From the NCBI GenBank assembly GCA_946699065.1, contig CAMPDV010000690.1:1-64000 (forward strand): DNA of 64,000 nt, given 5' to 3'. Below the pieces are notes generated by a model that was not told the origin of the DNA, searched no databases, and saw only the letters and a program-made list of their open reading frames with translations. This document shows, piece by piece, positions 1,292 to 42,249 of this stretch (the first letter of the stretch is position 1; each line of letters starts with the position of its first letter). The position numbers and the translations under genes are program-made. Source of the DNA: Loxodes magnus. Its lineage: Eukaryota; Ciliophora; Karyorelictea; Loxodida; Loxodidae.

Positions 1292-2372
1292 ATGGAGAGA
1301 AAATAAATGGAGAAAAAAGAAAAGCAATTTACTAAAGGTATTTTTTTAAGAAAACTCTTAAGAGCGAGAAGCCACTCTAGGGAAAATATCTCTACTTCAT
1401 TTTAAGTATGAAATTCTGCCTAACTTATGCTACTAAAAGTTAATAAACAAGATCAGTTATGACCAAAGTAAAGGTATTTCTTTAATATTTTTTAGACTAA
1501 GTCCTTACTGACATTTAATTTATTTACTCGGTAGCCATATCAAGTGACCTGAATTGGATTGTATCAAGTTCAGCATATCCTGAAAATAAGATAAAGATCT
1601 GGAATTTCCAGACAGGTACTCTCCTAAGAACTATAACAGGACATACTTCCTCAGTTAACTCGGTAGTAATATCCTCAGACTCTAGCTATATCGTATCAGG
1701 ATTTTCTGACTAAACCATAAAGATCTGAAACTTATAGACTGGTTCTCTCATAAGAACTTTAACTGGACATACTGGTTCAATTTAAATGGTAGTAATCTCC
1801 CCTGACTATAGATATATAGTATTAGGATCTTCTGACAACTCCATAAAGATCTGGAATTTCCTCAATGGTGATCTCCAAAGAACTTTGTCGGAACATACTT
1901 CTAGAGTTAACTCGGTAGTAATCTCCTATGACTCTAGATATATTATATCGGGATCTCGTGATAAAACTATAAAGATTTGGGATTTCTAGACTGGTCAGCT
2001 TGTGCGAACTCTTACTGGGCATCCAGGCTGAGTTTTATCGGTAAAAGTGTCTAAGGATAATAGGTATATAATATCAGGCTCGGATGACAGTACTATTAAG
2101 ATATGGGACTTCTCTTCTAGTTAGTGTATTCGTACTCTTTAAGGTCACGCAGATGTCGTATCAAGTATTCAGTTAAGTGTTGATTCAAGTGTTATATTTT
2201 CTGGTTCTGATGACTATCAAATCAAGATCTGGAACTTTGATAAAGGTGAGTGTATCTAGACTTTATAAGGGCATACAGGATCAATATCTTCTATAGCATT
2301 GAGTGTTGACAATAGATGGTTGGTATCGGGAGGATGGACAATACGATAAGAAAGTGGAGAGTTTCGAGTTGA
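1292..2372 (+). pseudogene. WD40 propeller gene, unit A copy, decayed
   Basis: Homologue of the intact gene at 41166-42249, with the same start context, the same 22-nt intron (1474-1495) and seven WD40 blades. Relative to that copy, two bases are missing in exon 1 near 1372 (CACTCTAGGG against CACATACTAGGG) and one base is missing in the last blade near 2334 (GGATGGACAA against GGATGGGACAA), so the frame is lost twice. The central five blades are well preserved, with GH, SPD-like and KIWNF motifs. A TGA replaces Trp in blade 2 (1726-1728) and blade 5 (2029-2031). TGG is kept at 1555-1557 and 1852-1854, where the unit B copy has TGA. Decay looks recent. Confidence 0.85.
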
Positions 2373-3013
2373 GTAACTTATGATTTGACTTAATTAAATT
2401 TTACGATTAAATATAAGATATTGGTAATGTATTTAAATGAATGTTTAATGTTTGTAATGTTTTTAGTTTTATGAAGTTTTTTTTAATTTATTTAAAATTT
2501 GTTATATTGTTAAATATTCTTGGTTTAAAAAAAAGATTGAGTAATATAGGTTATAGAAATTAGTGAGGTATACTGATTTAAACTGGGTAATGTTTAAAAA
2601 TATTTAAAATATAATTTTGTTAAATGAAAGAATGAAATAAGTTTAAGTTTAAATTTATGCTATAAATTTTATGGATTTATTTTTAGATTTAGTAAAAATT
2701 TAAGTTGAGTATAAATTATCATTTTTTTTGTGAAGTGGTTAAAATATTATTTATAAGGTTAAAGTAAGTTTATAATTTTGATTATTAATTAAAAAATTTA
2801 ATTAAGTATTTTAAATTAAATTAAATTTTGTTTTTTTATTATTTATTATTTATTATTAATTATTAATTATTTATTGTTATTATAAAATTTTAATATTTAA
2901 GTTTAATATTTTTTGTTTCCGATTGGATTATAAAATTTTTTGATATTAAGTTTTTTATTTATCATTATTTTTCGATTTTAGAGTTTAAATTTCATGAAAA
3001 TAAAAAATTTGTT

Positions 3014-3060
3014 TTTTTGCTCAGCGTTTTACACTACCAAAGATATCTGGGACGGAATAA
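3014..3060 (+). repeat. GCTCAGC motif, copy 1
   Basis: About 47 bases: T-run, GCTCAGCG, TTTTACACTACC, AAAGATATCTGGGACGGA, then ATAAA. It lies about 650 bases past the WD40 stop in gene orientation. Close copies lie downstream of the unit B WD40 gene (42987-43031, 43702-43749) and, inverted, downstream of the minus-strand kinase-WD40 gene (17488-17534). The role is unknown. Confidence 0.7.
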
Positions 3061-3510
3061 ATTTAATTATTTCGGGATAAAAATTTAAAAATAGGAATAA
3101 AATTTCAAGAAAAATTCAAAATATAAAAGATTTTTGAGAAAAAATAGGAATTAAAAAATTTTATATTAAAATAGAATTTGGAAATTTTTTTTGTTGAAAT
3201 GGTTTTTTGTAAAAATTAAAAAAAAATTTTTGTTTTTAAGAAAATTTTTTGAAAAATTTTCATCAAAACTTTTTTTCTTTTTTATTTAAAAGTATATTTT
3301 TGATAAGGTTAATTATGTTTGAAATTATAAAAAAAATTTATTGTTTATGCTTTGGAAAAAATACAATTTTTAATTTTGAACATCTTTTTGAGTAAATGAA
3401 AAACTTTGTTTTAAAATTTTTAATATTATAAGAATTTACTTAAATGAAAAGGATCTCAAGAAAAAAGGAGATATAATAAAATAACCATGAAATCGTGAAA
3501 AAATTATCCT

Positions 3511-3558
3511 TTTTTCGCTCTGAGTTATACGCTACAAAAGAATTTCGGGTGGATAAAT
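3511..3558 (+). repeat. GCTCAGC motif, divergent copy 2
   Basis: Reads CGCTCTGAG, TTATACGCTACA, AAAGAATTTCGGGTGGATAAA, and so keeps the spacing and the GG-rich end of copy 1. The unit B counterpart near 44195-44240 has lost the first half. Confidence 0.55.
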
Positions 3559-4977
3559 CCTTTTCTTAAAGGATAGAATTTTAAAAGATTTGAAAAGTTT
3601 TTTAAATGACTTTTAAGAAGTAAAGATAAAAAAATAAATTACAATTTTTGAAGAAACAAAATCAGTAAAATTTTTTTTTATAAGAGGGCTTAAAACTATT
3701 TTTTTAATGGATATTGTAAATTTTTAAAAATAACTAATCTAAAAAGAGCTAAAAAATCTCTTTATAAAAATATGATCAATCAAATAAAAAAAATGAGGTA
3801 AATACATCTGTAATAATAAATTTTATGCCAATTTACAAAGAGTCTAAAAAAAGTAATTAAACAAGGATCCAAATAAAATATCTAACCTAACTATATAAAA
3901 TATAGAAACAAAAATTTATTAATCAAGTTTAAAAATATTCTGCTTTATTATAATAATTATAAAAATATTAAAAATTTAAGATTAGTAAAAGAGTTTTGAA
4001 AAGAGCTTACTACGACTAACTATCTGTTTTTAGTTTGCGAAAAGATGTTAATTTAGAAGAGGAAAACAAGTTTTTAAGAAAAATTGCTATATTAAGTATT
4101 TTTTCTCTTTAAAATTTTTCTCATTCTGTAATATTAAAAGAAAAGCTTTAAAGATAAACTTTCTGATTATAAGCAACTTGAATATATCTACTGTGCATGT
4201 AGAAAATTGATTTTATTTATTAATCTTAAAATTTGAATTTATAATGAAGCTATTTTATTAAAGTTGAAAGCTTTTTAAAAAATAGATTGATTATTTATCA
4301 TATAAAAGCATTTGCTTGTAAACTATATAAATAATTTGAATATATGCAAAATTATAAAAATCTTCACTTTCTTGTAAATTATCTTATATTCCATCTAAAA
4401 TAAGAATAAAATTATATTCTAATATTAAATAATAAGAATTAGCAAAATGAAAGTGTAAATAATTAAGAAATCAATATAGTTTTAATTATATCAAAAAAGG
4501 TTAAAAGCTTTAATCTTTTGTATTAATTAAAATAATATACAAAGTGTAAGTTAATAACTATTATAATTATATCTATAAAAAATGGGAAATATTTCGTACA
4601 ATATAAAAAGAAACATATATACCATAATAAAAGCAAAGCTTCTACTAAGCCGATAATGCTAATAGTGCACAATTTCATAAATGATCTTAATAATGAGCTA
4701 TTTTTTGTTTTATTCTAAATTATTAGACAACTAAATTATAATTTATAATTTAAGCATTTCTTTAATAAATTCTTGCTTTAATATATAATATAGTATGATA
4801 TCAACTAAAAATTGCTAGATTATTTAAAGATTAAAACTTAATTCTTAAAACAATTCTTTTATAAGATAAACAATAATAATATGATATTATAGCCTAAAAA
4901 GAAAATTTTTTCCTGCAAATTGATTTATAAAACAAATCTTAAATTTATATGAGATTAATTGAAAATGAGCAAGAATT

Positions 4978-6600
4978 TGAGGAAATATAAAATAAATAGG
5001 TTATAAGATGCAATATATCGTCAAAAATATTTAGAATCTTTTCTGCAAACTTATCTCCGTCTATTTTAAATGAAGAATTTAGATTTTTGTAAAAAAACTC
5101 TAAGGCTTTTATTAGTCCAAGTGGTAGCTTAACTCTCTTAAATTGATCTAATAAAAGTCTTCTTTCTATTGAGTCAAACATTTTTTCAACATCTATCAGT
5201 GTTGCTATCAATTTAGTCTTACTTTTAGCACTTTTCCAATAGTTATCAATTATTTGTTATATTATTCAAATTTATTAAGTTGTTTATCTATTTTCATAAA
5301 TCCCATTTATGAAGAACTAATCAAATTTCTCTAATAAAGCAGATTGTATAATCTTCTCGTTAAAGCTTTATCATATAGTTTTATAATAATATTAATAAGA
5401 GAAATAGGTATTCAGTTTTTCCAGTCATCTTTATTTCCTTTTTTAAATATTGGAATTACCGACAATGTATTTAATTCCTAAGGATTTATTCTAAATCTTA
5501 ACATATTATTCAGAAAAGAGTGAAGAATTATTAACAAATATTATCCACCATATTTCAGAAATTCACTTTTTATTCTGTCTGGACCAGCTATTTTTCCATT
5601 CGTAATTTCTTTTATAATTTTTTGTATTTCTTGTATGGTAAAAAGATAAAATCCTAATAAATATGAGAGTTGATAATCTTTAATTTCTTAAATACTATAT
5701 TATATTTTATCTATTTTTTAATTACTAAGATTTATTTATTATTTAGTTAGATTAGAATGTTTGTTAAAAATAAATTCTCCCATGATTCAATGGATTTATT
5801 TTTGATTTCTTAATTAAAGTTCATTTAATTATTATTTTAGGCTTTTTAATATTCTTAGTATGTGAAAATATTTCTTTAGCATCTCCATTTAGAAGTAAAA
5901 GTTTCTTTTTTGCTTTATTTTTTTAAATTTTCAATTAAAAAATTTTTACTAAATATATAAGAGACAAAATACAATAATATTTTTATAATACAGCTACTCA
6001 AAAGTTTAAGAGAATGAAAAAAGCTAAAATATATACTAAGCAGTTTCGTATCTTAACCAATTTCCAGTAAACACTTACATTAAGTTGAACAAATAATTTA
6101 GACATGAAATTATCAGTATATATAAGCTTAGAACCCAATCTTTTAATTTTCTAAAATACTTTAAAATCTTCATTATCCTATTGATAATCCCTACTGTATG
6201 TGTGGAGAGTATGGTACATTTTAGCACATTTTTAAATGTATATACTATTCTAATATAAGAGATTGACTATCGTAAAAGATTGGGAATTATGACTTAAGCC
6301 GCTTTATAATATATGATTAAGGACTTATAAACTTCTTTCCAAAGTCTTATTTGAGATTTTTAGATTTATAAATAAAAATATTTCACAAGAAACTTATATC
6401 AAGAAGATTAGAATTATTAGAAATGGAAAAAGCAAAAAGGAAAACATAAAAGAGAGACTATAACAAGAGTAATTAAAAATTGATGAGATCAAAATTATAT
6501 TAAAAAGCATTAAAAACATTTACTAATGTCTATAATTGAAGGAAGCAATTCATGCAGTTATAGATGTCAAAAAACTCTTTTAATTTAAAATTTAAATAAA
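4978..6600. mobile_element. LINE-A fragment with an inverted middle segment
   Basis: Three pieces of a LINE-A relative in mixed orientation. Bases 4978-5053 (+) match 13652-13727 of the full element. Bases about 5058-5935 (-) encode reverse-transcriptase segments, including GPDRIKSE, an IPISL block with TGA at the expected Trp, and LIDVEKMFDSIERR (motif A). Bases about 5943-6600 (+) match the 3' end at about 15790-16450, including the CxC...H...C segment, a TGATGA stop and a 3' stem-loop at 6526-6567. The 5' junction falls at a GAG shared by target and element. The reverse-transcriptase catalytic core between the pieces is missing. It is absent from unit B. Confidence 0.8.
6526..6567 (+). other. 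3' stem-loop of the LINE-A fragment
   Basis: ATGTCT pairs with AGATGT and an inner TATAATTG pairs with CAGTTATA. It corresponds to the 16384-16425 hairpin. Relative to that copy, two C-to-T changes turn two pairs into G-U wobbles, and the stem survives. The CAAAAAACTCTTTTA tail box follows directly. Confidence 0.6.
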
Positions 6601-6895
6601 CAGTTTCATACAATAACTCTATTATTAAATTGATATATTATTACTAAATAGCTTTAATTTATACCATTTATTTTTATAAATAAATATTAAAATTTAGGTT
6701 CTAAAAACTAATTAAATTGCTAATGAAGCCATTTAAAGAATTCTTTATTTAACTATAATTAATAATACATAGATAATATAAAGGAAGAAATATCTAAAAG
6801 GAATTTAAGTTCTAAGTAAACTAAAGAGAACCTTAGCTTTATTACTTTAATAATATAAATTCTAAATGATAGCAAAATATAGTTTAAAATAATCC

Positions 6896-7152
6896 TTTAT
6901 AATAGTAAGATATTAATATTAAAAATACTATATCAAAAATCTAAAATAATTAAATAATTATATGCTAGAATTAATTATCTTTGTATCAATTTAAAACTAA
7001 TAAAGAGGATGCTTTTCATAATTTTGATATGAGTTTTAAATAATTGGTTAACGATAAGCATTTGATTACTAGATTATAAAAATATAAAAGTTCTCATTTG
7101 ATAATTAATGTCTACAATAATTAAAACAATAATTTAGTAAATTAAAAAGTAA
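6896..7152 (+). repeat. Direct repeat, left copy (257 bp)
   Basis: Nearly identical to 22174-22435, which has five extra bases (CTTAG near 22242). The two copies bracket about 15 kb of LINEs plus the kinase gene. The sequence is AT-rich with no coding signal. The right copy ends exactly where unit A regains homology with unit B, while this left copy lies inside the inserted block. Confidence 0.85.
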
Positions 7153-8649: not shown

Positions 8650-10460
8650 TCAGTTTTCTTGGTCAATATCTGATTCATATTCTTCTTCTTCTTCATCACC
8701 ATTGGAACTTTCAAAGCTTTCATAATTCAATGTATCTTATAAAATTTCGTTATTTTACTCAAGAATTTGTTTTCTTCTTCTAAGTAGCTTTTTATGAAAT
8801 TATTTTATTCTAAAATCAATATGTATTAGTTTTTTTAAGGTTGGAAAATTTTGATTAAGATAAGTTTAATTATATGTCACAAGTTTGAGCAAATCATAGT
8901 TTTTGAAATCTTAAAATTCTTAAATCAAATCTTTTAGAGATTCACATTGTTCAATATGTTAGATTGTATCTAATTATCCACAGTTGCAAAATTCTGAATG
9001 TTTTATTTCGTAATGTCTTTTCTTCAAATCATGCTGAAAATTGTAACTAAAAGTTCTTAGCTTGTAAATTGAAATTATTTCTCTTTTTTTGTTTTTGTTA
9101 ATTGTTGTGTATGTGTAATAAGGAAATTTTTCAGTATCGTTTTTTATTTCTCCGAAATAGAAACTTGTTGTAGACATTTTACTCATCCGATTCACTGAGT
9201 CTTGATAAAATTTCTTTTGTAACTAAGTTTTCACCTCTTTGATAAGTAATTAAGTTTCATTAGTATTTTCTAAATCTATTTAATAGTGTTTGGTCAACTT
9301 CTAAAGATTTTTAAAGTATTGCAAATTATCACTCTTAGATCTATTAAAAAGAAAACTAATATCCGAATCAGGTTGTAATTAAGTTTCTGTTTTTATTTTG
9401 GTATAAAATTTTATGTATTTTGTTGTAATATAATATTCAAATGGTAACCAATTTAAATCTATAAAACATGATTCATTAAAGGTCGCATTCGGACTTTATA
9501 AGGCCTATCTTGCTACTTTTCTTTAGCTCGCATAAATATTATTTTTAATCTTTTTAATTCCTTGGATGATAGATCAAGGGATTACTTCTGAACCATATTC
9601 TACTTTTGGAAGAATAAAAGATCGAAAAATTTGTAAATAGTTTGAAGGTGTAATATTTTTATATTTAGAAAGTTACAAAATAGCGCCATTTACACATTAT
9701 CTATATTTTAAATATATTTCATTGCAATGAGATTTATAGTATTCATGCTCATTAAATTTGTATCCTAAATATGTTATATTTTTAGATTTTTTAATCTCTA
9801 TGTTATTCAAAGTAATTTTTAGGTTAGAATCATTTTATCTTTAATTTTTCTTTAAGAAGCAGATGTACTCGCACTTATCTACATTAATAGTTAACTTTAC
9901 TCATCTAAAAACTTTACAAGTTGCTTAAATCAATGCATTCATATTCGTTTCATCTGAAAATAAGATTAAATCATCCGCCCAAGCCTTAGTAATAAATATT
10001 CGACTACATATTTTAAAACCACGCTTTTTTTAATAAGTTTCAATATATCTTATTACAATATCATAAAAGATTATAGCAAGTATTGGTCCATGAGAACTCC
10101 CTTATAATACTCCGTTATTATAAAGTAAATTTCTAGATAAGGTCCCATCTAAAATAAATCTAACATCTAATTATTTATAAAAAGATTCAAAACTATTAAT
10201 CAATGCTAAAGGAAGCTTTATTCTTCTTAAATGATCAAAAAGTAATCGCCTGTCAATTGTGTCAAACATCTTTTCTACATCTATAAGAGTAGTAATAAGT
10301 TGTTTCTTCTTTCCTCATCTTTTATGCAAATCAATAATTTGTTATAAAGTCCATACATGATGCATAGTTTAATTTTTTTTAAGAAATCCTTTTTATGAAG
10401 GATGTATAATTCTACGTTAATTAACATACTCATAAAGTCTCTAAGTTAATAGTTTGTCAT
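8650..10460 (-). mobile_element. LINE-B: ORF2 C-terminal two thirds, interrupted at its 5' side
   Basis: One continuous minus-strand frame of about 603 codons under the reassigned code, ending at TGA (8652-8650). In order it shows a YDKLL...QKGFLKK thumb-side block, LIDVEKMFDT (motif A), GVLQGSSHGP (motif B), AWADDLILFS (catalytic DD), a TGA-coded Trp before LTIN, YLGY, DLNWLPF, then the LINE C-terminal CxC...H...C segment (FCNCGQLDTIQHIEQC) and an acidic tail. No frameshift is seen in this part. The endonuclease and the fingers region are missing, because the frame is cut at 10460 by the A-run that opens LINE-A. The missing 5' part is not found beyond LINE-A, so sequence was lost or moved. 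Confidence 0.88.
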
Positions 10461-10473
10461 AAAAAAAAAAAAA

Positions 10474-12993
10474 ATGGACGAAATATAGAATTCACTAGTT
10501 TTTAATAGTGACTCTTCTTTAATTAATTTCAAAGAAGCTGCAAATTCATAGGAAAAGCATAGGCAGGTGCATTAAAATCTCCAAACGAAAGATTTGGAGT
10601 AACTACAAATTAAATAAGTAAACCTAATAATGAATTTATTAAGACAACTACTTAAAAATTGTAGTCAAAAACCGGAAAACAAATTCATACACGTCCCATT
10701 AAAACTACTTAGGAACTCTCTTCAACGTGGATATTAATTGTAGCGTATTATGAAAGCGAAATCAACCTATAAATAGATGAACAGATTAACCGCCTAAAAT
10801 AGTACCGCGAAAGATACGAAACGATTAACTAAGAAATCTTTCCAAAAATAAGATATTATCTTAGATAGTTAGAATTCAAAAGATATACCTTCAAATCCTA
10901 ATTAAAATTCAAATAAAGATATCCTTTTATGGTAGTCAAAAATAACATAAACTTAAGATTCATTTTTGAATAATACTAATTAACAATTCTATTAAATTTC
11001 AAATAACGAAATTAATCAGAAATAAAATAATATTACTAATCCTGATAATTCAAATAATCAATATTTACCTGATCTTCAGAGCAAACAACCTTAAAATTAA
11101 ACTGCTGATTTAAGAAATGTAATATAAAATCAAATAATTAATTAGTCTAATGAGGATTTATTTACCTTAGAAATAAAAGAACTTAAGCATAATATATAAA
11201 GACTTATAGATAAGAACCAATAATTAAATGAAATGCTAATTAATATAAAAGCAAAATATGAACGAGATATTGAAATATTGATAAGTAACTAAGAAATATC
11301 CAAAATATATTATAAAACTTATATAAATAAAATTTATTAGAAATATAAACTATTATAGTACAATTTTTAATCAATCAAATCTGATATATAGCAATATCAC
11401 AAAAAAATGTTATCAAAATAACTAGTTCATAAAATTACTTAAACAAATTTCTCCACTTATTACAGTAACTAAATAGTTTAAACAGATGAAATAATTAGTA
11501 TAGTTCAAGAAATTTAGATATAATAGAAATACTATGAGAATTAAGTCAATTCAATAGATGAAATATAATCTAATTAAGAGATTCAAATTGAAGCCAATGC
11601 TAATTAAAGCTTTACTTAAGCTTAAATGATAGGAGTAAATAATTCACTATGTCAAAACTTTAATAAAATTAGAAATTTTACTTAGATTGAAATAGATAAC
11701 TTTCTAAATAAAACTTAGCAAGGATATCAATAGACTATATTAGAATAGAACTAATATTTACTTCAACAAATTACCTAATAAAAAATAATAACCGAAATTT
11801 AACTCCAAGAGTTATATTCTTAATATTAAAAATTATAAAACTAAAATAAGTAATTTATAGATTAAGAATAGAAAGCTTAAATGGAAATTTTAACTTTTAA
11901 AATCGAATTAGATAAGTAAAGATAATAAAACTATGAAATAAATATAGCTTTTCAAAATTAAATTCTATTAAAAAATAAGGAAATTCAAATGTATAAAGAA
12001 TTATTTTAGAAGAAGTAATTTTTAGATACATAAACTTAGACATTATATGGAAATATTTAAACAAATGATAGTATTATCTAAACAGATAATATAAATAAAT
12101 AATAAACAGCTTTTTTGTGTCAAAAATTTACTCAAACAAGTATAATCAAGCAAGACAAGTTAATGTAAACTTAAAATAATTAATAGAAAACATCAACTAA
12201 TGCTATTATAACATAACATAATAACTAATACTGTCAAGTTAAATTGCCAGATGAAGATTTTGTTTTACTATAGCATTAATATCACTAACTCAACTTAAAA
12301 TTCATTTAAAGTACCCAAAATATGTAGACACTTGAGATAAAAATAGAAGAGTTTTAAAAACTTAATTAAAATTTGAAAACAGATATATTTAATTATTCTA
12401 CTAAAAGATGACAAAAATATTAATAAAACTAAACAGATTCGATCGATGCTATTTATCAGAATTAAACCTTATCTTACAATATTAATCTTAATATTCTTAA
12501 AAGGAAACATGAAGAAGAAGATAAAACAATTCCACCAGCAAAACGTATGAGTAAACATAATAATAAAAAAGAGTGCGATTAAATAATATGTTATTTCAAT
12601 CTGACTAGTCTATAACTTTAAAAGTTTATTAAATCCGAAACTTGAAGAAGTCTATAGTACGAAATGTACAATATATAAGGTAGATATGTCACAGTTACTT
12701 AAGATTTAGAATAAGGTACATGTGATAGTGTGAAAAGTAAAATTGATATAGATAGAAAGCTACTTAAAAAATATACGACGTAAGTAATATATATTTTGAT
12801 ACAATATTTTCATTAACATCCTGAGTATGGAAAAAGATTAGTACATATTTAGATTAACCAATAAGGATAGAAAAGCATTTGCATTTACGAAAGTAGTCTA
12901 CCTGCAGGATCGGAAAAAATTAGAAAGGACTAATAAATTTAAAAATAAAGATGGGACATATAGATATTAATGGAATAGCGAGCAAGTGCTTGA
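10474..12993 (+). CDS. LINE-A ORF1 protein, Gln/Asn-rich, probable RNA-binding
   Basis: Frame of 839 codons plus stop with only two internal TGA (in AKR-W-QKY and SET-W-RSL contexts). That is far below chance for this composition, which argues that the frame has been protected. The N-terminus is MDEIQNSLVF. Most of the first 650 residues is rich in Gln, Asn and Ile with coiled-coil-like stretches. A basic patch (LKRKHEEEDK...PPAKRM) precedes a more globular C-terminal 150 residues. No zinc knuckle is visible, unlike the short ORF1 elements at 39365 and 46082. The ATG follows 14 A residues, and the stop TGA (12991-12993) overlaps the ORF2 start by 43 nt. Family logic suggests an RNA-binding chaperone of the retrotransposon particle. 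Confidence 0.7.
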
Positions 12994-15900
12994 ATATTGA
13001 AGAATTTATCAGAGATAACAGTATAGATATTTTATCAATAAACGAAACCTGATAAAAAGATGACTTTCCTCCAATATTGATAAATGGATTTAAAACATAT
13101 TTTAAGAACTCAGGAAAAGGAGGAGGTGTATGCTTAATTGTAGGAGAAGAATTTAATAGTACAGAAATACATATATAAGTTGAAGAAAAAAAAAATCGAT
13201 TCATAACAATTAAACTGGATAATATTTTAACCACGTCTTGTTACATGCCTGATAATGGAAAAAGTTAAGATGTTAAAGATTTAGCTTATGAACAAATAAA
13301 TACATTGCTGAATTTATATAATGATAATCCACATATACTAATGGGAGATTTCAATGCTCTTTTATAAGGCTTCGGTGATAATCCTGAAAATGCTTATGAT
13401 AATAACATTAGACTATAAGAATTCTTACTATAAAACGATCTTGAGATAGTGAATGATAGCAACATTAATACATGTATTCATAAAGGAACAGGAAAAACGT
13501 ATTGTAATGATTATATCATTATAAACAACCATTTGAGCGTTAATTAGTTTGCAAATTTCACTGCTCATAATAATAGTTTATTTTCTGATCATATTCCAAT
13601 TACTGTCGACTTTATCAATAATTCTATAGTATATTGGGAAAAGATAACTCAGAGAAAATATAAAATAAATAGGTTATAAGATGCAATAGATAGGCAAAAA
13701 TATTAAGAATCTTTCCTACAAACTTATCTAGAATTCTTTTAAATAGATTAAGATAATCTTGAAGATTAATATGAATGCATCAAAAGTAGTATTTAAGACA
13801 ATGCTGATCAAACATTAAGTTCGTTTATTCCAGGCTCAAATTATAACAAACTTCCTCGAGCTCTCACAAAGAAATATATAGAGGCAAAAAGAGCTAACTC
13901 AGAATATAAGGAAGCTCACATAAAATTTGGAAGAATAAACTAGCAAGTAACTAATCTTCATGAGGCAGCAAAACGACTTTGGAAAGACTTCAAGTATAAT
14001 CTATGAAAATTTGAAAAAATAAAGCAAAAAAGAAATTTTTACTTCTAAATGGAGATGCTAAGGAAATTTTTTCACAAGCTAAGAAAATTCTAAATCTTTT
14101 GAAGAGAAATAATATGAACTTTAATTAAGAAATCAAAAAATAAATCCATTGATTCATGGGAGAATTGCACTTTTAACAAACATTCTAATCTAACTAAATA
14201 ATAAATAAATTTTAGTAATTAAAAAATAGATAAAATATACGATAGTATTTAAGAAATTAAAGATTATCCACTCTCGTATTTGTAAGGATTTGATCTTTTT
14301 ACCATAAAAGAAATATAAGAAATTATAAAAGAAATTCTGAATGGAAAAGCAGCTGGTCCAGATGGAATAAAAGGCGAACTTCTGAAATATGATGGATAAT
14401 ATTTATTAATAATTCTTCATTCTTTTTTGAATAATATGTTAAGATTTGGAAGAATCTCTTAGGAATTTAAACACATTGTCGGTAATTCCAATATTTAAAA
14501 AAGGAAATAAAGATGATTGGAAAAACTGACTACCTATTTCTCTTATTAATACTATTCTAAAACTATATGATAAAGTTTAACAAAAAGACTATACAATCTG
14601 ATTTATTAGAGAAATTTGATTCACCCTACATAAATGGGATTTATGAAAAACAGATAACAACTTAATAAATTTGAATAATATAACAAATAATTGATAACTA
14701 TTGGAAAAGTGCTAAAAGTAAGACTAAATTGATAGCAACACTGATAGACGTTGAAAAAATGTTTGACTCAATAGAAAGAAGACTCTTGTTTGATTAACTT
14801 AAGAGAGTTAAATTACCACTTAGAATAATAATAGCCTTAGAATCGTTTTATAAAAACCTAAATTCTTCATTTATCATAGATGGTAAGAGTACCAGAACTT
14901 TATAATTCAACAATGGAGTTATGTAAGGAAGTTCTCATGGACCAGTTTTAGCATTATTGTATTATGGCATAGTAATTAGATATCTGGAAAGTAAAAGTAA
15001 CTAATTGGGATTTAAATGCCAGGATTCAAGTATTAGCTTCGCTTGTAGAGGATGGGCAGATGATCTTATTCTTCTTTCCAAATCTGCAAAGTATATGTAG
15101 AATTTAATAAATGAAGCAAATAAAGTTTTTGCATGAACACATTTAAAGATCAATGTTACCAAATCTGAATGCATCTAATTTCTAAAGAAGAATTAGAAAT
15201 AATAAATTTTAAATTTATGATTAGGAAATTAACCAATTGCTTAAAAAGAACAAGTAACATATTTAGGAGTTATTCTACATCAGAAGAAGAACTTGAATCC
15301 CCATTGCAAAGAAGTTGCATTCAAATATATAGCTACAATGAAGAAAGCTGTTTTTTAACTGATGAGATATAAGAATGAAACTCCTTGACATTTTAAAACT
15401 TTATGTAGACTTTTTACATTACCTAAAGCAGAATATGGAGAAGACTTAGTACCATGAAGTATTCAAAAAGGAGTAACTGGAGTTCGGAACAGAATAGAAT
15501 CAAGCATGAGATTAATTTCAAGAAAAGCTTTTTAAGTAGCAACTTCAACATTTAATGAATCATGTTATATAGACTTGAATTGATTACCCTTTAAGCACAT
15601 TATGGCTATAAAATTCTTCAGATTCTACCATAAAATGAAATAAGAAAGTATTGATTTTCCAAGATCAACAATAGGCTCTCTTTTCATTAATATATGGAAA
15701 AAAGGATTTCAATACTACGATTAAGTGTAGCAATTATCAGACCTTTATAAAATCGATCTGCAGAATTAATAGAATAATACAAATCTTAAAACTTTTACTA
15801 AACATGTAAGAGAAAAAATACAACAATATTTCTACAAAGTAGCTACTAAAAAATTTATGAGAATGGAAACAGCTAAAGTATATACTGAATAATTTGGTAA

Positions 15901-16339
15901 TCTTTAACAATTTCCACAAATTACTTATACTAAATTAAACAAATTGTATAGAAGAGAAATTATCAGTATATATAAACTTAGAACCTAAACTTATAATTCC
16001 CGTAAGGATCTTTAAGATCGTCATTAACCCATTGATAATCCCTATTGTATGTGTGGATATTATGAAACTTTCGAGCATATCTTTAAATGTGTGTATTATT
16101 TTAATATAATGAATTGATTATCGGAAAAGATCGGAAATTATGACTTAAGGCGCCTTATACTATACAATCAAGAATATCTAAACTCATTTTCAAGGTCTAA
16201 ATTGGAGTATTTAGACTTATAGATCAAAATATTTCACAAGAAGCTAATGACAAGGAGACTTGAGATTCTAGAAATGGAGAAAGCAAAAAAGGAAGAAGCT
16301 AAAGATGAATAGAAAGAAGAACTAATTAAAGAAAAATGA
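12951..16339 (+). pseudogene. LINE-A ORF2: endonuclease plus reverse transcriptase, frameshifted
   Basis: Begins MGHIDINGIASK in a different frame from ORF1. The N-terminal 330 or so residues are an APE-type endonuclease with SINET-W (TGA 13050-13052), GDFNALL and SDHIPIT. The reverse transcriptase follows: AAGPDGIKGE, DDWKN-W-LPISLI (TGA 14527-14529), LIDVEKMFDSIERR, GVMQGSSHGP, GWADDLILLS, then a TGA-coded Trp (15134-15136) before THLKINVTKSE. The C-terminus has CMCGYYETFEHIFKC. It ends at a tandem TGATGA (16337-16342). The start lies in phase 0 and the end in phase 2. At least three frameshifts are inferred by comparison with the fragment at 5058-5935, for example near 14030-14150 and 14466. 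It is a dead copy. Confidence 0.85.
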
Positions 16340-16383
16340 TGAGATGTAAACAAGATTAAAAAACAATTTAAAAACATTTACTA

Positions 16384-16447
16384 ACGTCTATAATTGAAAG
16401 AAGCAATTCTTGCAATTAAAGACGTCAAAAAACTCTTTTAGTTTAAA
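16384..16447 (+). other. LINE-A 3' stem-loop and tail box
   Basis: ACGTCT (16384-16389) pairs with AGACGT (16420-16425), and ATTG (16393-16396) with CAAT (16413-16416). The conserved box CAAAAAACTCTTTTAGTTT follows. The same box follows the terminal hairpin of the SINE-like element at 22506-22816. In LINEs such 3' hairpins are known to be recognised by the reverse transcriptase. That role here is inferred. Confidence 0.65.
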
Positions 16448-16809
16448 TTAAATTAAATTTAAATTCTATCAAATATTTTTCAACAATAATCAAATAATTT
16501 TTAGCTATTTTTGAAGGAAAACTTATGATATAGAACAATAATCTATTTATAAGTTAATTTACTGAGTAGTTGATAAATTACATATTAAATCTAATTTTTA
16601 ATTAAAAATATTTAGCTCATTTATATAAGCATATAACCACTTAATAAATCTTCAAATTAATTTTCCTCTTTACAATTTATTGAAACTATAGATTGATAGT
16701 TAATCAAAAATTTATGATGCCATTTTATAATATTGATAGGATATTAAATTTTAAAGGTATTTTAAATATTCAATTATTTTAACATTTTATTTAATAACAT
16801 TACATCTTT

Positions 16810-17211: not shown

Positions 17212-17487
17212 ATTAAAATATTTTTGTTAATTTCTAAAATATCTTTAAAATATTTATTTATTAATAAATATAAGATTAAATATCATATTTATTCAAAAAG
17301 TTTCGAGATATATATACAAAAATTTTTAGTATTTTTAATTCTCTGATGCAAAGAAAAATTAGTTTTTTTTTAATATTTTTAAAACTCTTTCTCTTAATAA
17401 AATTTATCTTTAAAAATTCTGCATATATTTTATTTTTCGAAGAAAAAATACTTTTATCTTGAATATTAGCCTGATTTTTTAAAAGTT

Positions 17488-18054: not shown

Positions 18055-19109
18055 CAAATTTTTTATTTTCACAATTCTTATTCTCTAACAATTTACAAAA
18101 AAATAAATTTAATTAATTAGTTAAAAATAAATAAAATAAACCAAATTAAAATCAAATAAAAAATTAAAGCATTAACTTTTCTAACTAACTTTTATTCACC
18201 TTTTCAAAAGTTTATTATTTATTAACTAATATTAACGCAAATAAATCTAAAATAAATAACTCATAAAAAAATATTAAAAAATAATTCTAAAAATTAATAT
18301 TAAAAAACCAATAAATTCATACCATTCGAAGTAATAAAAACTCAGATTAAAGCGAAATATTTAAATCAAAACAAATTATTAACTCTTACCCAACTTGAAC
18401 TTATTCACTCAAAAATAAAAAATTATAAACATTAAAATTATCAATATAAACCTATATCACTTTATTTAATAAACACTTCTACTTTAAAAATTATACTCTT
18501 TTATACTCTACTCTCAATACCTTCACAATATATAATCATAATCAAATTTTGAATTACTTTAATAATCCTAAATTAAAAAATTAAAAATAACTAAAAATTA
18601 AAATATTTTATACTTATATATAATTACTCACACACATAAACACTTAAACTCTTAAACACTTACCAGTCTCTTAATATTATCATACTATTTTTTATTAATA
18701 ATAAGTTAAAGCATTTTTAAAATAATATCAATTAATATAAATTAATGTCCTAAACATATTTACATACATTATCATATCACTTTAAATAAATAATTAATTT
18801 AACTTTTTTTAATGCCTTTAAAGTCACATCCCTTAAACTTCCAAATTATTATAAATTCTTATATTACACATTTATACTTAATGACTTCATAATTCTATAA
18901 AATATTAATAATATATTTATCAACTCCTTTTATATTTAAATACTTAACTTTTATTTAAGTTTAAATCTACTTAGTACTCTCAAAATATTCCACAATTTCC
19001 CTCCAACCTCTTCTATTCCTCCTCACCCACTCTTGTCCCCTCAAAACTATTCTCCTTTATAACTCTCCAATCCCCTCAATCATACGTCTTTACACAATCA
19101 TATTAAAAT

Positions 19110-20789
19110 TCAACTTACTTTATCCACCTATCCCTACTTTGTCAACTCTAATATCCTCCTTATATTCCATTTTCTTATCGAGGAATCATAAGATGCTGAT
19201 ATTATATAGTTAGAGTCAGGGGAGATTACTACCGAGTTAACTGAATCAGTATGTCCAGTCAAAGTTCTTAGGACAGTTCCAGTCTGGAAATTCCAGATCT
19301 TTATCGAGGAGTCATAAGATGCTGATATTATGTAGTTAGAGTCAGGGGAGATTACTACCGATTTAACTCAATCAGTATGTCCAGTCAAAGTTCTTAGGAG
19401 AGTTCCAGTCTGGAAATTCCAGATCTTTATCGATGAGTCTGAAGATGCTGATATTATATAGTTAGAGTCAGGGGAGATAACTACCGAGTAAACTGGATTA
19501 GTATGTCCAGTAAACAATTTGTTTTGCTCTAGTTGAATATTCTATATATTTGATATACTTGCCTTGCCAAAATTACATTTTACAATCTCACCATTTGATA
19601 TTTTAATATCCTATAAACTTGAATTACTAAAATCACAACCCACAAAGCAAGGCTCTCTCAAATCAACTCCCTTTATTCTCACTCCTCTCATATCCTAGTT
19701 AAAAAACACAAAACCCAAACAACTCAACATTGTTATCGCATTCCCCGAAGCTTAGGTAATCTTGTCACTCCATTTAGATATCTTTATCACCTCTAATAGT
19801 TTTTACTCTATTGTCTGGTCTCTCATAACCTCTAACTATTATAAGATGTCCGTCTACTCTAACAAATGCTTGTTATTCAGTATGCTTACTTTTATCTACT
19901 CTATATATATTTTTTATTCCCTGAACAGGATTAGAAATTATCTTATTTTTTAACTACTCATTTAAGGATTAACGACAGGAATTTCAATTAATTAGATTGC
20001 GCTTTACTTTATAGCCTCTATATTCAATCTACTTTAAGGCATCTACTACCAACATCCTCTTATTATTTAGGCAAACTATTCTGGACACTCTTAAGGTATT
20101 TACTCTCTTTCTCCATGACTAACTTAGTATATAACAACCTAATCGTTTAAAGCTTTGAAAGGAATTTCTCTTGTCGCTATTTCCCAGAATACCATACCCA
20201 AAGCGTATATATCCGATTAAATGCTATATTTAGGTCTAAGCGTCATTAATTCCGGAGCCATCCAACGAGTAGTTCCCACCTATTATACTGAACTTAAAGA
20301 TTTAGATTCTGTCTTTATTCTGGATAGTCCAAAATCAGTTATTTTAACTTTATAACTAGCATCCAATAGTATATTACTACTTTTCAAGTCTCTATGAATT
20401 ACTTTCAACTCATGAATATACTATAATCCCTATACTATCTATAAACATATCTCATACCTTAACTTCCATTCAATCTCTTAACTACTATGTAAAAATCCAT
20501 ACAAGGATTATTACATTAACTCCATGACCAAAGACATTGGAGAAGGACAGTATCCATATAATAAAACTACATTTGGATGTCTAAGCTTTTATAATATATT
20601 AAGCTCTTATAGAAATTCATTAGTTATCTCATTCATAGAACTCTAAATTAATAGCTCCTTTATAGCCACATCAATACTTCCTTACCATTTCCCTTTATAC
20701 ACAATACCAAAGTTTCCACTGGCAATTTGAGAAGCTTTTTATAAACTTTAAGCCTCTATAACTAAATATTGATCTATGGTAGATTCCAT
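19110..20789 (-). CDS. Protein kinase (TKL-like) fused to coiled coil, NAI/pentapeptide linker and WD40 blades
   Basis: Intact 559-codon frame, start ATG 20789-20787, first candidate stop TGA 19112-19110. The kinase domain spans residues about 20-265: glycine loop [11 protein letters not shown] (23-33), VAIK (Lys44), Glu62, HRDLKSSN (132-139), DFG (152-154), RWMAPE (175-180), [11 protein letters not shown] and GCWQQM near 245-250. The HRDLKSSN and RWMAPE forms fit the TKL group. A helical stretch (about 285-345) precedes an NAI...CLGF module (about 350-365) and pentapeptide-like GVDL...CDFSNSSL repeats (about 370-420), then three WD40 blades (about 426-545). One Trp in blade 2 is TGA (19370-19368). 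All catalytic residues are present, so it is probably active. Three blades cannot close a propeller alone. It has no counterpart in unit B. The role, perhaps signalling from a sensing propeller, is inferred. Confidence 0.9.
19175..19515 (-). repeat. 126-bp WD40 blade repeats, near identical
   Basis: Units start at 19175, 19301 and 19427, exactly 126 bases (42 codons) apart, and differ at only a handful of positions. Such identity, including silent sites, points to recent blade duplication or ongoing homogenisation within the kinase-WD40 gene. Confidence 0.85.
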
Positions 20790-22816: not shown

Positions 22817-22953
22817 ATTTATCTTAAAACTTAATATCTTTTATATTTATTATTAAATAATAGTAAAATTAAGAGTTTACTATGTAATTTTAAAACTTTT
22901 TATTATATGTATAGTTATATTAAAATTATGTACGAATTATTTAAAAATTAGAT

Positions 22954-35240: not shown

Positions 35241-38200
35241 ATAATAAATCTTTGTTTTCTATTATTATTTTGACTTATTTAAGTTTAGCTAATTATTACT
35301 TTTAACAAAATGTTTTAATACCTTCTCTATATTATATTAAACAAACACTATCAAGTTTATAATTATCAAATAAATGCTATTCGATACTTATTAGTAAATA
35401 AGTATTAGAAACCCTCAAAATGGAATTGATATTTTAGCTTTATTCCTAGTTATATTATTTCTTAAGAATCTTACTAATCTTCACTTTTAATCTAACATAT
35501 TATAATTATAAAGTCGTACAATATTATTCAAGTCTGTTTGCTAATAGCCTATGGATAAAAGAAATAATCATTTAAGGCTCTTTAGAATTTTCCACCTATT
35601 GGGTAAATCTTTTGCGAAAATTCCAATATTGATAGAATTTGTATTCCAGGAATTTGTTTGAAGGATAAAATTTTGTATTAGTTTTTTTAAAAAAGTCTTT
35701 AGCCTTTTTAGCATTATATTGTTTAATAACCAAAAATATAATAAATTAAGCATATTAACTATTTCCACTATAAAATTAAAAGTTCTACAATAGTATATAG
35801 ATGTGCTATTACTAAGATACATGGTTAATAATTATTTAAATGTTATAAGTATATCTCTTATAGTCTTTACATTAAAGCACTAAATATATAATACTAATAA
35901 GCTGCTTTGTTAAAATAAAGGGTTGCTAATAGTCTTAGTAACTGTAATATAATAATGCTAGGCTATTAAAATTAGGATATAGTGATTAGTTAATTAAGCT
36001 AGGTTGTTAATCTTATATCCTTGCTACTTTAATATCTAATTATTTGTCTATTTAGGTTAAAATAAGTTGCTATTAAAATAACAAGCTTTTACTTCTTTTA
36101 AATATATTAAGGTTTACCATTATTTGTAGTTATAGTGAGTGAGGTGTAATTAGCTTACTACGTTTGAATACCAATCAGTTTAATAGATTCAAGATAGTGA
36201 GATCTAATAAAAACCTTAGTCTAGTCTAGTAATATGTGAAGCTTAAAAACTTACTTGAAGTTGTTTATTGGCAATTCCTTTAGATCTTTATATGGTGAAT
36301 AAAGGAACATTAAAGAAAAGTCAGCAAGATGAAAATTTAATTCTATTCTAATAAGAAACAGTGATCTAAAAGACAGAGTCAGATATCAATTTCTATAGTC
36401 CAAATTTTAGTAAAAAGTAGAGAATGTTGAATGAAGCAAATAATAGACACTAAGAATGAGCTTAAAATTAAGATAAAGCGAGGTATTTGGACAATCTTAT
36501 ATTTGTCATTAATTGCTTGACTGGTTTTGTCTATGAATTCATCTAAGAAATATTTAAAAGCCTCAAATACTTCCAAACGAGAGATTCTTATTAGTGATGT
36601 TAATTTCTCTAAGGATTGCTAAAAATTTTGAACTCTTTGATGAAGGCTGCGGAGAACATTCAATTGCTGTCTGATTTCTACTTAACTTCATTGCTAGAAT
36701 TGCGATATTTTTGTAGTTAGAAATGCTTGATAAACAGAAAAATATATAGAAGACTAATCAAGCTTTGGAAGTTTTTTCGCTATATTTTGATATATATAAT
36801 ATTAAGCCTGATACCCGAATAAAATCAAAGAAACAGAAAAAGACGAAATACCAAAAACAAAACATTCCCAGTATGAAACTTAATCTTTAAAATAAAGTCA
36901 CATCTTCAAAGATAGAAACGAAATAGACGGTTAGCTTTTAATCCAGACCTCGTTGGATATAAACGGGTAGATTTGAAAGAAACTAAATATAGTTTAAAGA
37001 TTATCTGATAAAACCATCAGAGGTTTAGAAGAATTATTACTATGAAAGAATAGTTTGAACTAAAGGAATTAAAAAAAGAAAAAAGTATAGGAATATCCCA
37101 TCAACGATAGATATTTAAAATTAAAGAATCTCAATGAGTCTCCTATTACTTTTAACATGCTGAATATAACTGCCAAGTAAAACTGGCTAGTAAAAAATGT
37201 TTAACCTGCCTACTTTCAATTTTTTAAATTGCAAGTTTAGTCTCAGAGCTACAATGAGGAGTTTAATCTAGCAGTAAAGAGATAATAAGCAACTTTCTTT
37301 AAAAGGGAAGAAAAAAGCAAAAAAATAATCAATTTAAGCTATAAGATTTAAGGACTAAGGAACATATATATCATTTACTTACCTAATAAGTGGAATCTGG
37401 AGCTTAAAACAAAAAACATTTGATAGATTTATTTTAAAGCTTTTCGTAAAAGAAAATAGACAACTTCATATTATTCTTTTTTAGAAGATTTACATTATTG
37501 AAGCTAAGAAGTAGATTTACCTTCAAAGTAGCTGCTTGCTTATATGAATCAATTAAGATAGTTTAGTTGCTGGCTTAGTTTCTTTCAGTTTATCTTCTTA
37601 AAATTTATGTTAAAGAAAGACAAGCTATGTGTAAGAGCAAGGAACTACATATCAATGAGCAGTAAATTGAAACGATCAGAGAAGAATGCAAGTTCAAACT
37701 GACCAAAAAACAACTTCAAAGTACTAGCCTCAGAGTTAATAAATCCATTAAAGTATTTAATTGATTATTTATTGGAGCATTACTAGTTAAATTAATATAT
37801 TATTAAGATTACTAGACTCAGTATCTTTAATTAAAGATAGCCTAATTCTGTATAATACTTCTTATTTATGTATCTTAATAAACTAACAAGATACATTAAA
37901 CCTTTAAATATACTATATATTTCATTTTAAGCTTTTATTTACAAGATATTTGCTAATAAGTATATTAAACTAATTTAAAAATAAAATCTAGCTTTAATGC
38001 TTTTTTATGGTAGTTAATGTTTTAGGTTTATTTTAGCTTAAAGATATAAGGAAAATCAAAATAGAGTAGTATGATCTAAATGAAGAAAAGGGAAGTTAAG
38101 CAGATAGAGCTTTAAAGGATTAGACTGATAATGTTTTCAAGAGATTAAAGTATGAATGTTTTTGTAGTTTTGAGATTTAAATTTATGTCTATTGAATAGT

Positions 38201-39244
38201 GTAGTGAATGAAGCAGCAAATTCAATCTAAGATATTGCAAAGTTGGAGAAAAAAACAGCAATTTTTATATTCCTAAGAGAATAAAAAATAAACGTAACTG
38301 AAAATTTTTGATTTAAGATAATCAAGAAATTGAAAAACTTAAAGATTGTGTAAAATTATGGTACTTCGAAAATTTAGATCTCGAGCTATTTCATGAATAT
38401 TTCAATCTAAATTTTATAAAAGCCATTGAATATTCTAGTTCTAGAAGGATTTACATTTTTTTGTTTTTTTCAAAAGGACAATTCTTAGATTTATAAGTTC
38501 AAAGTAGACATTTTGGCAACCACTTTGGACATGTACATTTCTCATTTAATCACAGCTTTTTTATTTAAGACTTTGATTAATTAAATTTTAGTGACTTCTT
38601 TTTTTTCTATTTAGAAGCACTGGAATTCTATAATATTTATTCTTCTATAAAACTTTTGTTATTCTATTTTTCTTAAGAAGTACTTGTTAAACCATACTCA
38701 ATATCCAATTTGTAACTACTTGCAAACTTAAATATTTTTTAAATATCAAGCAGCCTTTTAGTTGCAATTGATTATTTTAATTTATTCAGAAAAAAATTAA
38801 AGTTTAGCAGCTATTTCATTCTAGATAGCAAATGATATTCTTAAATCTTTTAATTAATAAATTTAAATTTAAGCTTTAAAACTCTTATCTTGTAGGTTTA
38901 ATCTTTTTCTCACTTTCATTATGTTTATTTAAATACTTTCTTATTACTACTAAAGACTGTATTCTTTTTAAATTTTATGACTAAAGTCAACTAGATTAGG
39001 ATTTATTGTGGCTTTAATTTTAGTTTTAAATAACTTATACTAGCTAATCTAATACTTATATTATCTCATATTACAAAGAAATATATTATGTTAAGTTTAC
39101 TCTTTCTATTAATTCAGAAAATAATAATAGAAGATATTAAAAATATGCTTTCTTATAAGCTTATAATTTTCTTAAGAGCAAACAACTAATTTTAAGAAAG
39201 AGAGTATTAATAGTGATAACTATGTTTTTTGGATAAGAATAGAA
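35241..39244. other. Unit tail, no gene recognised
   Basis: Continues the plus frame of the P-loop gene without a motif I can place. Hydrophobic stretches (LVFLKKSLAFLALYCLI) occur near 35670-35730. Bases about 35170-37090 look identical to 59270-61190 in unit B, while neighbouring sequence differs. From about 37800 to 39244 the sequence is plain AT-rich. Minus-strand open frames here are mirror images of the plus-strand signal and are not called. Confidence 0.45.
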
Positions 39245-39355
39245 TAGTAGAATTAAGTTTTTATCTTTAAATAATCTAGAATAATTTAGGTATTATTAAT
39301 TAGAAATGATAATTACAAAAATAACATAAATAATAAATATAATATTAGTTTGCTA

Positions 39356-40190
39356 AAAAAAAAAATGGAATAATCTATTCGCCTTTCCAAAAACCAAATT
39401 AAGAACGCAAAAAGGAAAGCTGCGAAACAAATGCAGAGACAACAACAAGAAGAAGATAAATCAAGTTCCTCCTCTGAAGGAAAAATCATAATCGGAACAA
39501 TAGAATCGAATCCAGTAAAGGTATAAAAATAATCCGAAATATAAATATAGCTTGACCAAATGAAAACAATAATACAAAATTATTAGGAAACAATTTACAA
39601 CCAAGGGGAAAAAATAAGAGAACTAATGAATACTATCGAAGATTAAAATAACGAGCTTCTAATAATTAGACGATAATTGATTTAGAATAATCTAGTCACG
39701 GAATAGTAACTATATGAATAATCTCAATCGAATTTTAAGCAAGAACAAAATATGATTATCGAAAATGTTTCTACATAAGCAAACGTTTAAGAAAAATAGA
39801 ATGACTAAAAGATTAATATAGATTTAATCAAAAGAATCGATTAACTTGAAAAAAAAGTATTTCTGAAGAGATTCAAGAAAAAACAAGGCAAACAATGCTA
39901 TTATTGCAAATCAAAGTGACACTTATTACAAAATTGCGATTAGTGAAGATAAATTTAGATAAAAGAACAATAAAGAACGTTAAGCATACTCAGCAGACTC
40001 TGAATAACCTAAACAGGGATTTACAAGAGAAAACTATTCACATAAAAGACAGAAGATCCTCTGTGGTTCCATCCACATAAAAAAATGGCGTGGTATCCAT
40101 CCACGCTAAAAAAATGGTAGCAAAAACCTGGTTGAAAATCCAGGGAATGCTAAACTTTAATTACTTTTAGTTTACTATTATTATTATTAT
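39356..40190 (+). mobile_element. ORF1-only retroelement 1 (835 bp) with 16-bp target duplication
   Basis: Inserted in unit B between direct copies of TAATATTAGTTTGCTA (39340-39355 and 40191-40206). Units A and C have the empty site (near 317 and 63425). It starts with ten A residues and an ATG (39365). The frame MEQSIRLSKNQIKNAK shows a basic head, a coiled coil (residues about 60-120) and a CCHC zinc knuckle CYYCKSK-W-HLLQNC (Cys at about residue 178, TGA before His). Three hairpins and an (ATT)n tail close the element. It has both ends but no endonuclease or reverse transcriptase, so it is a non-autonomous, gag-like element comparable to half-LINEs. Confidence 0.85.
40062..40144 (+). other. 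Triple hairpin 3' end of ORF1-only element 1
   Basis: Three stem-loops in series: TGTGG-ttccat-CCACA (40062-40077), GCGTGG-tatccat-CCACGC (40088-40106, with one more loop base) and CCTGG-ttgaaaat-CCAGG (40127-40144). TAAAAAAATGG separates each from the next. That spacer is also what opens the LINE ORF1s here (A-run plus ATGG). Confidence 0.75.
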
Positions 40191-41165
40191 TAATATTAGT
40201 TTGCTATAAAAGAGAAAGTTATCTAAATGTATTAATTATAACTAATCTAATATCTAAATTAAAGAGAAATTAATTAATAACTAATAAAGCTAAAAGGATA
40301 AAATTTTAAGTATTTAATAGACATAATTAAACATATTAAAGCTTATTTTAATAATAAAATTAAATATTACTATTTAATAATTGTAAGATATAATTAGTGA
40401 TACACCATTTATAGTTAGTTTAAATATTTACTTTCTACTACTTATATTTATTACATTTATATGTTTTGCTTAGAATCAACATTAAAATAAATTATATTAG
40501 TTTATTATTTTAAGAGAGACCTTTATAAATAAAAAGTTTTAATGAAATAGTAGTAAAAAAGTGGGCAATTAAAAGAGTTTATCTTATAAATTCTAAAAAT
40601 GCTTTTTTAAAATAATTTGATGTTTTTTAATATTTATTCAAACTAATTAATAAGAAACTTATTTTATTTAATTTTTTTAATTAGTAAAAAGATTAAACAA
40701 ATAATTTTTTGATTAAATGTAAGTGAAAAATAATAATTAATAACAGTAGATTTAAAAGAATTGTAATATTTTATTTATTATTTAAAAGGGTCTATAAAGA
40801 AATAAGTTATTCTTATTAAGAGCCTTTGATTTAAAGCAAAAATAAGTTGTAATTAAATAAATGCATACTAAAGTTATTATAATAAGGATATAATTCTTCT
40901 TTATAAACTTTTGATATAATAACTTATCCTTTTATTAAAAGTAAAAAGATATAAAATAATTAAAATTGTAAAGATTTGTACACTATTAGTTTAATATCTT
41001 GTCTTGCTTTAAGACAAAGATAGAAAAATCAATGTTTTATAAATAAGATATTTATAAGTATGTTTAATAAATTATTTAATAGTTTAATTGTATTGAAATT
41101 AAGTAAGTAAAATTTATTGAGTTATTTTAATTAAATATTTATTGAAGTAAGTTATAAAAATTAAA

Positions 41166-42249
41166 ATGGAGAAAAAACAAACGGAGAAAAAAGAAAAGCA
41201 ATTTGTTAAAATTATTTTTTTAAGAAAACTCCTAAGAGCGAGAAGCCACATACTAGGGAAAATATCTCTACTTCATTTTAAGTATGAAATTCTGCCTAAC
41301 TTATGCTACTAAATGTTAATAAACAAGATCAGTTATGATCAAAGTAAAGGTATTTATTTAATATTTTTTAGACTAAGTTCTTACTAACACTTCACCTGTT
41401 TTATCGGTAGCCATATCAAGTGATATGAATTGAATAGTATCAAGTTCAGCATATCCTGAAAAATCGATAAAGATCTGGAATTTCCAGACAGGTGCTCTCA
41501 TAAGAACTATAACAGGACATACTTCTAATATTTTATCGGTAGTAATATCAGCAGACTTTAGCTATATAGTATCAGCATCTGGAGATTCAACTATAAAGAT
41601 CTGAAACTTATAGACTGGTGCTCTTCAAAGAACTATAACGGGACATACTTCTAGAGTTAACTCGGTAGCAATCTCCCCAGACTCTAGCTATATTGTATCG
41701 GGATCTTACGATAACACTATAAAGATCTGAAATTTCCTCAATGGTGATCTCCAAAGAACTTTGTCGGGTCATACTTCATATGTTATATCGGTAATAATCT
41801 CCTATGACTCTAGATATATTATATCGGGATCTTGGGATACAACAATAAAGATTTGGGATTTCTAGACTGGTCAGCTTGTACGAACTCTTACTGGGCATTC
41901 AGGCTGAGTTTTATCGATAAAAGTGTCTAAGGATAATAGGTATATAATATCGGGTTCTGTTGACAGGACTATTAAGATATGGGACTTCTCTTCTGGTTAG
42001 TTTATTCGTACTCTTTAAGGTCATGCAGGTGGTATATCAAGTATTCAGTTAAGTGTTGATTCAAGTGTTATATTTTCTGGTTCTGATGACAGAACAATCA
42101 AGATTTGGAACTTTGATAAGGGTGAGTGTATATAGACTTTATAAGGGCATACAGGATCAATATGGTCTATAGCATTGAGTGTTGATAATAGATGGTTGGT
42201 ATCGGGAGGATGGGACAAGACGATAAGAAAGTGGAGAGTTTCGATTTGA
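41166..42249 (+). CDS. WD40 seven-blade propeller protein, intact (unit B)
   Basis: Two exons, 41166-41349 and 41372-42249, joined across a 22-nt intron, total 354 codons, 353 aa, stop TGA. The N-terminal 60 or so residues are basic (MEKKQTEKKEKQFVK, then LRARSHILGKISLLHFKYEI). Seven WD40 blades follow from about residue 67, each 42 residues with GH, SVxIS, GS-D-TIKIW and a TG turn: a full propeller. Trp is TGA at 41431, in blades 2 and 3 (41728-41730) and in HSG-W-VLS (41905-41907). Gln is TAG or CAG at the same place in different blades. It probably serves as a protein-interaction scaffold; the partner is unknown. The unit A copy is broken. Confidence 0.9.
41350..41371 (+). other. 22-nt spliceosomal intron of the WD40 gene
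   Basis: GTATTTATTTAATATTTTTTAG, phase 1, between the AAAG end of exon 1 and ACTAAG. Removing it joins exon 1 to the first blade in frame and makes the total length divisible by three. The same intron, with one change, is at 1474-1495 in unit A. Very short introns are typical of ciliates. Confidence 0.8.

Follow-up and report, generated by a model that had tools for sequence, protein, structure and literature searches.

Duplicated genes in a 64,000-nucleotide stretch of genomic DNA (hereafter the window; positions 1 to 64,000 of the forward strand of contig CAMPDV010000690.1, C690 in our numbering) carry TGG in one copy where the other has TGA. We are nearly certain that this DNA comes from the nucleus of a karyorelict ciliate, namely from the macronuclear assembly of Loxodes magnus, that it uses NCBI translation table 27, and that these TGG/TGA swaps are synonymous changes. 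In this code UAA and UAG would be translated as Gln, while UGA would be read as Trp inside genes and would usually act as stop close to the 3' end of the mRNA, as reported for L. magnus (PMC11441545) and Parduczia sp. (PMC4967479). The code is already published for L. magnus, and the interpretation is correct but not new. All searches outside the window were made in the same assembly (705,730,643 bases in 7,843 contigs); the macronuclear assembly of L. magnus is given as 706 Mbp (PMC11441545).

Codon meaning inside genes

Two units of WD40 repeats in the window, both on the forward strand, align codon by codon. Unit A (1525–2322) and the corresponding part of unit B (41401–42198) share 88% nucleotide identity over 266 aligned codons; unit A departs from the frame of unit B in its last blade, while unit B runs on to 42249 and ends in RKWRVSI followed by TGA at 42247–42249. 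As the original prediction had stated, TGG at 1555–1557 and 1852–1854 in unit A faces TGA at 41431–41433 and 41728–41730 in unit B, and both copies have TGA in blade 2 (1726 and 41602) and at the HxGW site (2029 and 41905). The four columns with TGA thus comprise two TGA/TGA and two TGG/TGA pairs, and none faces another residue. Under table 27, the units differ by 25 synonymous and 47 non-synonymous codon changes, with a crude non-synonymous to synonymous ratio of 0.58. Units A and B together contain 85 codons one step away from TGA, of which 14 are TGG. The chance that both swaps come from TGG is consequently ~0.03 if every one-step change is equally likely and ~0.4 if only transitions are considered (14/22). 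Because they are just two events, the swaps alone are weak evidence, and it is the Trp columns of protein kinases elsewhere in the genome that make the assignment firm.

Among 136 listed kinase matches, we read 30 domains, with TGA, TAA and TAG masked. These domains contain 21 TGA and 61 TGG codons. In strict columns (at least 60% conservation), TGA fell on Trp in eight of nine cases and on Ile in one, and TGG fell on Trp in 38 of 39 cases and on Ile in one. The three kinase Trp columns together hold 47 TGG and 13 TGA. For UAA and UAG, the evidence comes from histone H3. In 11 H3-type genes, four Gln columns were located through their conserved neighbours, three of them matched in all 11 genes and the fourth in the five canonical genes only. 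The conserved Gln is encoded there by CAA 13 times, TAA 12 times, TAG ten times and CAG three times, so that TAA and TAG account for 22 of 38 codons. Judged from these alignments, the sampled genes outside the window agree with the claim that all three standard stop codons have sense, UAA and UAG as Gln and UGA as Trp. The Gln sense is well shown by H3, and the predicted replacement of CAG by TAA or TAG is also seen between blades within the window (CAG at 1609, TAG at 1735). It does not hold between units A and B, where the codon is identical in six of eight TAA/TAG columns, one faces Ser, one faces Asn and none has a CAG partner.

The same codon usage extends to two long interspersed nuclear elements (LINEs) of the window, LINE-A and LINE-B. 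The reverse-transcriptase part of LINE-A (14702–16339, forward strand; PF00078) contains six in-frame TGA codons ahead of a terminal TGA. The reverse transcriptase of LINE-B (8650–10545, reverse strand; PF00078) has TGA at 9903 and 9576 and a candidate stop TGA at 8652–8650; in its DLNWLPF motif, TGG at 9450–9448 corresponds to TGA at 15581–15583 in LINE-A. TGA also occupies the Trp position in the LINE-A endonuclease motif NETW (13050), in NWLPISL (14527) and in HTDWVKSV (19370–19368, reverse strand) of a kinase gene described below. LINE-A, the main LINE of the window, is a member of a high-copy family. A genome search with its reverse transcriptase scored 80 of 20,045 first-look candidates; each of these at least 80 listed matches, the window copy included, has 5–7 in-frame TGA, and copies are 90–91% identical to the window copy. 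In 30 loci compared over 545 codons, TGA is confined to six columns plus the terminal one, and columns 144, 228, 251, 293 and 471 are TGA in all 30 copies. As the copies are very alike, they count as about one lineage. Trp is encoded by TGA more often in the LINEs than in the kinases (12/19 against 21/82, Fisher p 0.0028), the LINE figure being that of one copy, L092 plus L045, with the overlap counted once.

Some observations weigh against these assignments. Seven of the 21 kinase TGA codons stand in less conserved columns with a majority of D, Q, Y or E, and five more have too few partners for scoring. The sixth TGA column of the LINE reverse transcriptase, column 172, is TGA in 22 of 30 copies and TAA in the other eight, and four of eight TGA columns compared between LINE-A and LINE-B face residues other than Trp. 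Could the code instead be the standard one or resemble that of Tetrahymena, with the three codons acting as normal stops in pseudogenes that have decayed and transposons that are dead? The window is rich in repeats (a survey displayed 20 of 46 repeat families), LINE-A is frameshifted, and unit A leaves the frame of unit B as noted above. However, conserved kinase and H3 genes show the same codon usage, five reverse-transcriptase columns are TGA in every LINE copy compared, and 26 of 29 copies have the endonuclease and the reverse transcriptase in the same frame. We consider this explanation very improbable; in our view the H3 genes rule it out as an account of the whole for UAA and UAG, and the kinase Trp columns do so for UGA.

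The WD40 family has further members. A gene on the reverse strand (18990–20735) joins a protein kinase to three blades related to units A and B. It has one in-domain in-frame TGA, that of HTDWVKSV, and more beyond the last blade; the blades resemble units A and B at 75–79% between inverted arms. Units A and B may be propellers that were duplicated without the kinase. Elsewhere in the genome (150 WD40 matches scored), many matches lie in arrays on C1503, C119, C9, C272 and C620, often in 126-bp steps, and the arrays on C1503, C9 and C620 contain repeats with and without in-frame TGA within one array. The window also holds a direct duplication (~22.8–37.5 kb and ~46.9–61.6 kb, spacing ~24.1 kb), with 96–100% identity in the displayed 300-nt blocks and 90% in one 209-nt block beyond.

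Gene ends and translation machinery

Intact genes had been predicted to stop at TGA, and this was largely borne out. We followed 20 histone genes to their ends among 31 listed matches; five further stretches, with H2A-like genes, ended before the stop. Eighteen terminate at TGA, two at TAA and none at TAG. The TGA-ended genes comprise five canonical H3, four of six H3 variants, one divergent H3, six H2B and two H2A.Z genes, the variant names being our own labels. Both paralogs of the release factor eRF1 also end at TGA, with a second TGA three codons on. In karyorelicts including Loxodes, UGA is reported to be Trp or stop according to the distance from the poly(A) tail (PMC11441545), and from this literature we infer that such a switch would act here too. 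The karyorelict type of context-dependent UGA proposed in the original prediction is supported by genes outside the window.

The same report describes UGA as the only stop codon of L. magnus (PMC11441545), and within the window we see no difference from table 27 as published for L. magnus and Parduczia sp. (PMC11441545; PMC4967479). At other places in the genome, two H3-variant genes apparently use UAA as their stop. Both genes, L077 and L080, have TAA exactly where their paralog L078 has TGA, which would weigh against a code in which UGA alone is the stop. L080 (G000:C327:221640-222240) reads TAATAATAA and continues without any in-frame TGA over the ~60 further codons that were read, whereas L077 (G000:C34:504270-504880) reaches an in-frame TGA five codons past its TAA. 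In addition, TAA is absent from the Gln codon that lies closest to the H3 stop (0/11, against 12/27 at the three other Gln columns; p 0.0076, with paralogs that are not independent), while TAG shows no deficit there (3/11 against 7/27). This lack of TAA agrees with the published depletion of UGA and UAA, and not of UAG, before L. magnus stops (PMC11441545). From the genomic sequence, TAA may also end these two H3-variant genes.

These data bear on a different reading, in which the code is nearer to that of Condylostoma (table 28), with UAA and UGA both stops near the 3' end and UAG by now almost purely sense. In Condylostoma magnum, all 64 codons have sense and the stop meaning is given by position, as here; however, all three codons can be stops there (PMC4967479), in contrast to the 18 TGA, two TAA and no TAG in our small sample of 20 histone genes. 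The two TAA-ended variants, the open frame behind the TAA of L080, the missing TAA in H3 and the published UAA depletion all speak for this reading. Against it stand the predominance of TGA at histone ends, the nearby TGA of L077, the lack of independence among the paralogs, and the description of UGA as the only stop (PMC11441545). On balance we regard a Condylostoma-type code as possible but rather unlikely, and retain table 27. Seah and colleagues are said to have reported in 2022 that a minority of karyorelict transcripts may use UAA as a stop.

Both eRF1 paralogs (L040 and L041, ~35 kb apart on G000:C196) read NIKS(R/K)AVQKAV, with NIKS kept. They presumably have Ala at the position of yeast Ser67, which is Ser in human and yeast. 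Both contain FLCENTF in place of the usual eRF1 motif, YxCxxxF. No tRNA was found in a search of the window, and a tRNA scan of 38 loci gave one tRNA-Phe and no tRNA-Trp. A genome search with RF00005 listed 63 tRNA places, without isotype; some matches cluster on G000:C103, C78 and C158, in part evenly spaced (527 or ~1750 bases). A Loxodes tRNA-Trp(CCA) with a 4-bp stem is cited in PMC13092985.

Architecture of LINE-A

LINE-A spans ~10.75–16.46 kb of the window; its 5' end was not found. The candidate single open reading frame (ORF; 10750–16342, forward strand) would comprise an ORF1-like part, an endonuclease part (12948–13988; PF14529, with the NETW codon) and the reverse transcriptase, with frameshifts in the window copy. 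Of the three in-phase ATG codons in 10501–11000, the one at 10750 comes second. PF14529 and PF00078 are both present in copy L045. Being multicopy, with both domains and a common 3' end, LINE-A is by its sequence features a non-long-terminal-repeat (non-LTR) retrotransposon with an endonuclease of the apurinic/apyrimidinic (AP) type (LTRs were not searched for). It resembles repeat elements described for L. magnus, which measure 5–6 kb, carry RVT_1 plus Exo_endo_phos_2 and occur in many copies (PMC11441545), although we could not match the family number.

Three copies depart from the common frame of endonuclease and reverse transcriptase, namely the window copy, L044 and L046; L065, in which the 5' part is missing, was not counted. 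A frameshift or intron between the two domains, suspected from L044, was dismissed given the single frame of the other 26 copies. Further upstream, the one copy fetched (L092) has a Gln-rich ORF1-like stretch in the endonuclease frame, which contains three TGA there, while the other two frames contain 24 and 10. When the frames were scored by their base composition at each codon position, with endonuclease and reverse transcriptase as training set, the endonuclease frame came out ahead in 15 of the 16 bins, of which the final two fall inside the endonuclease, and over the first 1500 nt the lead of this frame was reached by none of 2000 base shuffles. Other tests did not support it. In the comparison of the window copy with L092 and L045, the selection ratio is 0.76 in the ORF1-like frame and 0.48 in a wrong frame, and differences peak at the third position of that wrong frame (26 against 14 and 14). 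Codon scores trained on kinases left the frame undecided over the first 1400 nt of L092, and no Pfam family scored above cut-off in the ORF1-like stretch. Because the ORF1-like frame matches that of the endonuclease in TGA counts and base composition, and endonuclease and reverse transcriptase share one frame, LINE-A most likely encodes one polyprotein, of ~1,860 codons if translation starts at 10750.

The ORF ends in a tandem TGATGA (16337–16342), found in all 30 copies printed. It is followed by ~100 nt, which in the window copy contain a hairpin (16384–16425; 118-nt fold, z −4.36, reached by 0/200 shuffles), and then by a variable (TTTAA)n-type tail; L064 lacks most of the ~100 nt, and the tails of the printed copies show no run of A like that of a usual poly(A) tail. 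At 5939–6597 (forward strand; 79% identity to L045) lies a diverged relative of the LINE-A 3' end, with TGATGA at 6481–6486 and a hairpin of equal length at 6526–6567 (z −2.13, 8/200 shuffles). ORF fusion, tandem TGA and 3' hairpin are not described in those sections of the L. magnus account that we consulted (PMC11441545). Tandem stops in other ciliates likewise provide an in-frame backup at or soon after the first stop, but concern host genes of species in which UAA and UAG are Gln (PMC6879139), whereas here a retrotransposon is concerned under an ambiguous UGA.

Retrotransposons under an ambiguous stop codon

We tentatively propose, as a suggestion with a modest chance of being right, that the LINEs of L. 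magnus were shaped by the ambiguous code, with one polyprotein and a doubled UGA-UGA, and that UAA would still serve to some extent as a stop close to mRNA ends, by itself in a few genes, an H3 variant among them. Since a UGA inside the element would be translated as Trp, no stop could separate ORF1 from ORF2, and the two would be joined into one polyprotein. The 3' untranslated region (UTR) of ~100 nt would need to keep its hairpin for reverse transcription. It would put a greater distance between stop and RNA end than host genes have, whose 3' UTRs are reported to average 53 bp with a median of 41 bp (PMC11441545), and the stop would be doubled for this reason. In this way the LINEs would be adapted to a code in which a UGA within a gene cannot end translation. 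Apart from PMC11441545, we found no literature that by its title treats LINE ORFs and stop reassignment.

The doubled stop and the single-frame ORF might equally well be inherited from one successful source element and have nothing to do with the code, a possibility to which we give an even chance. The close identity of the copies to the window copy and their near-identical 3' ends agree with such a descent, as does the single TGA at the candidate stop of LINE-B; yet TGATGA is also kept in the relative at 79% nucleotide identity. Under ordinary codes, too, there are LINEs that have a single ORF and an endonuclease, such as Ingi/L1Tc of trypanosomes.

Taken together, a known oddity of the genetic code was recovered independently from raw sequence, and what deserves to be followed is the build of the LINEs and the H3 variants with TAA at the stop position. 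Genes that apparently end at UAA bear on whether the code is truly 'UGA only'. Retrotransposons in a genome without an unconditional stop codon make the rules that separate stop from sense testable, and the predictions on fused ORFs, doubled stops and 3' UTR length could be checked with reporters and transcripts.

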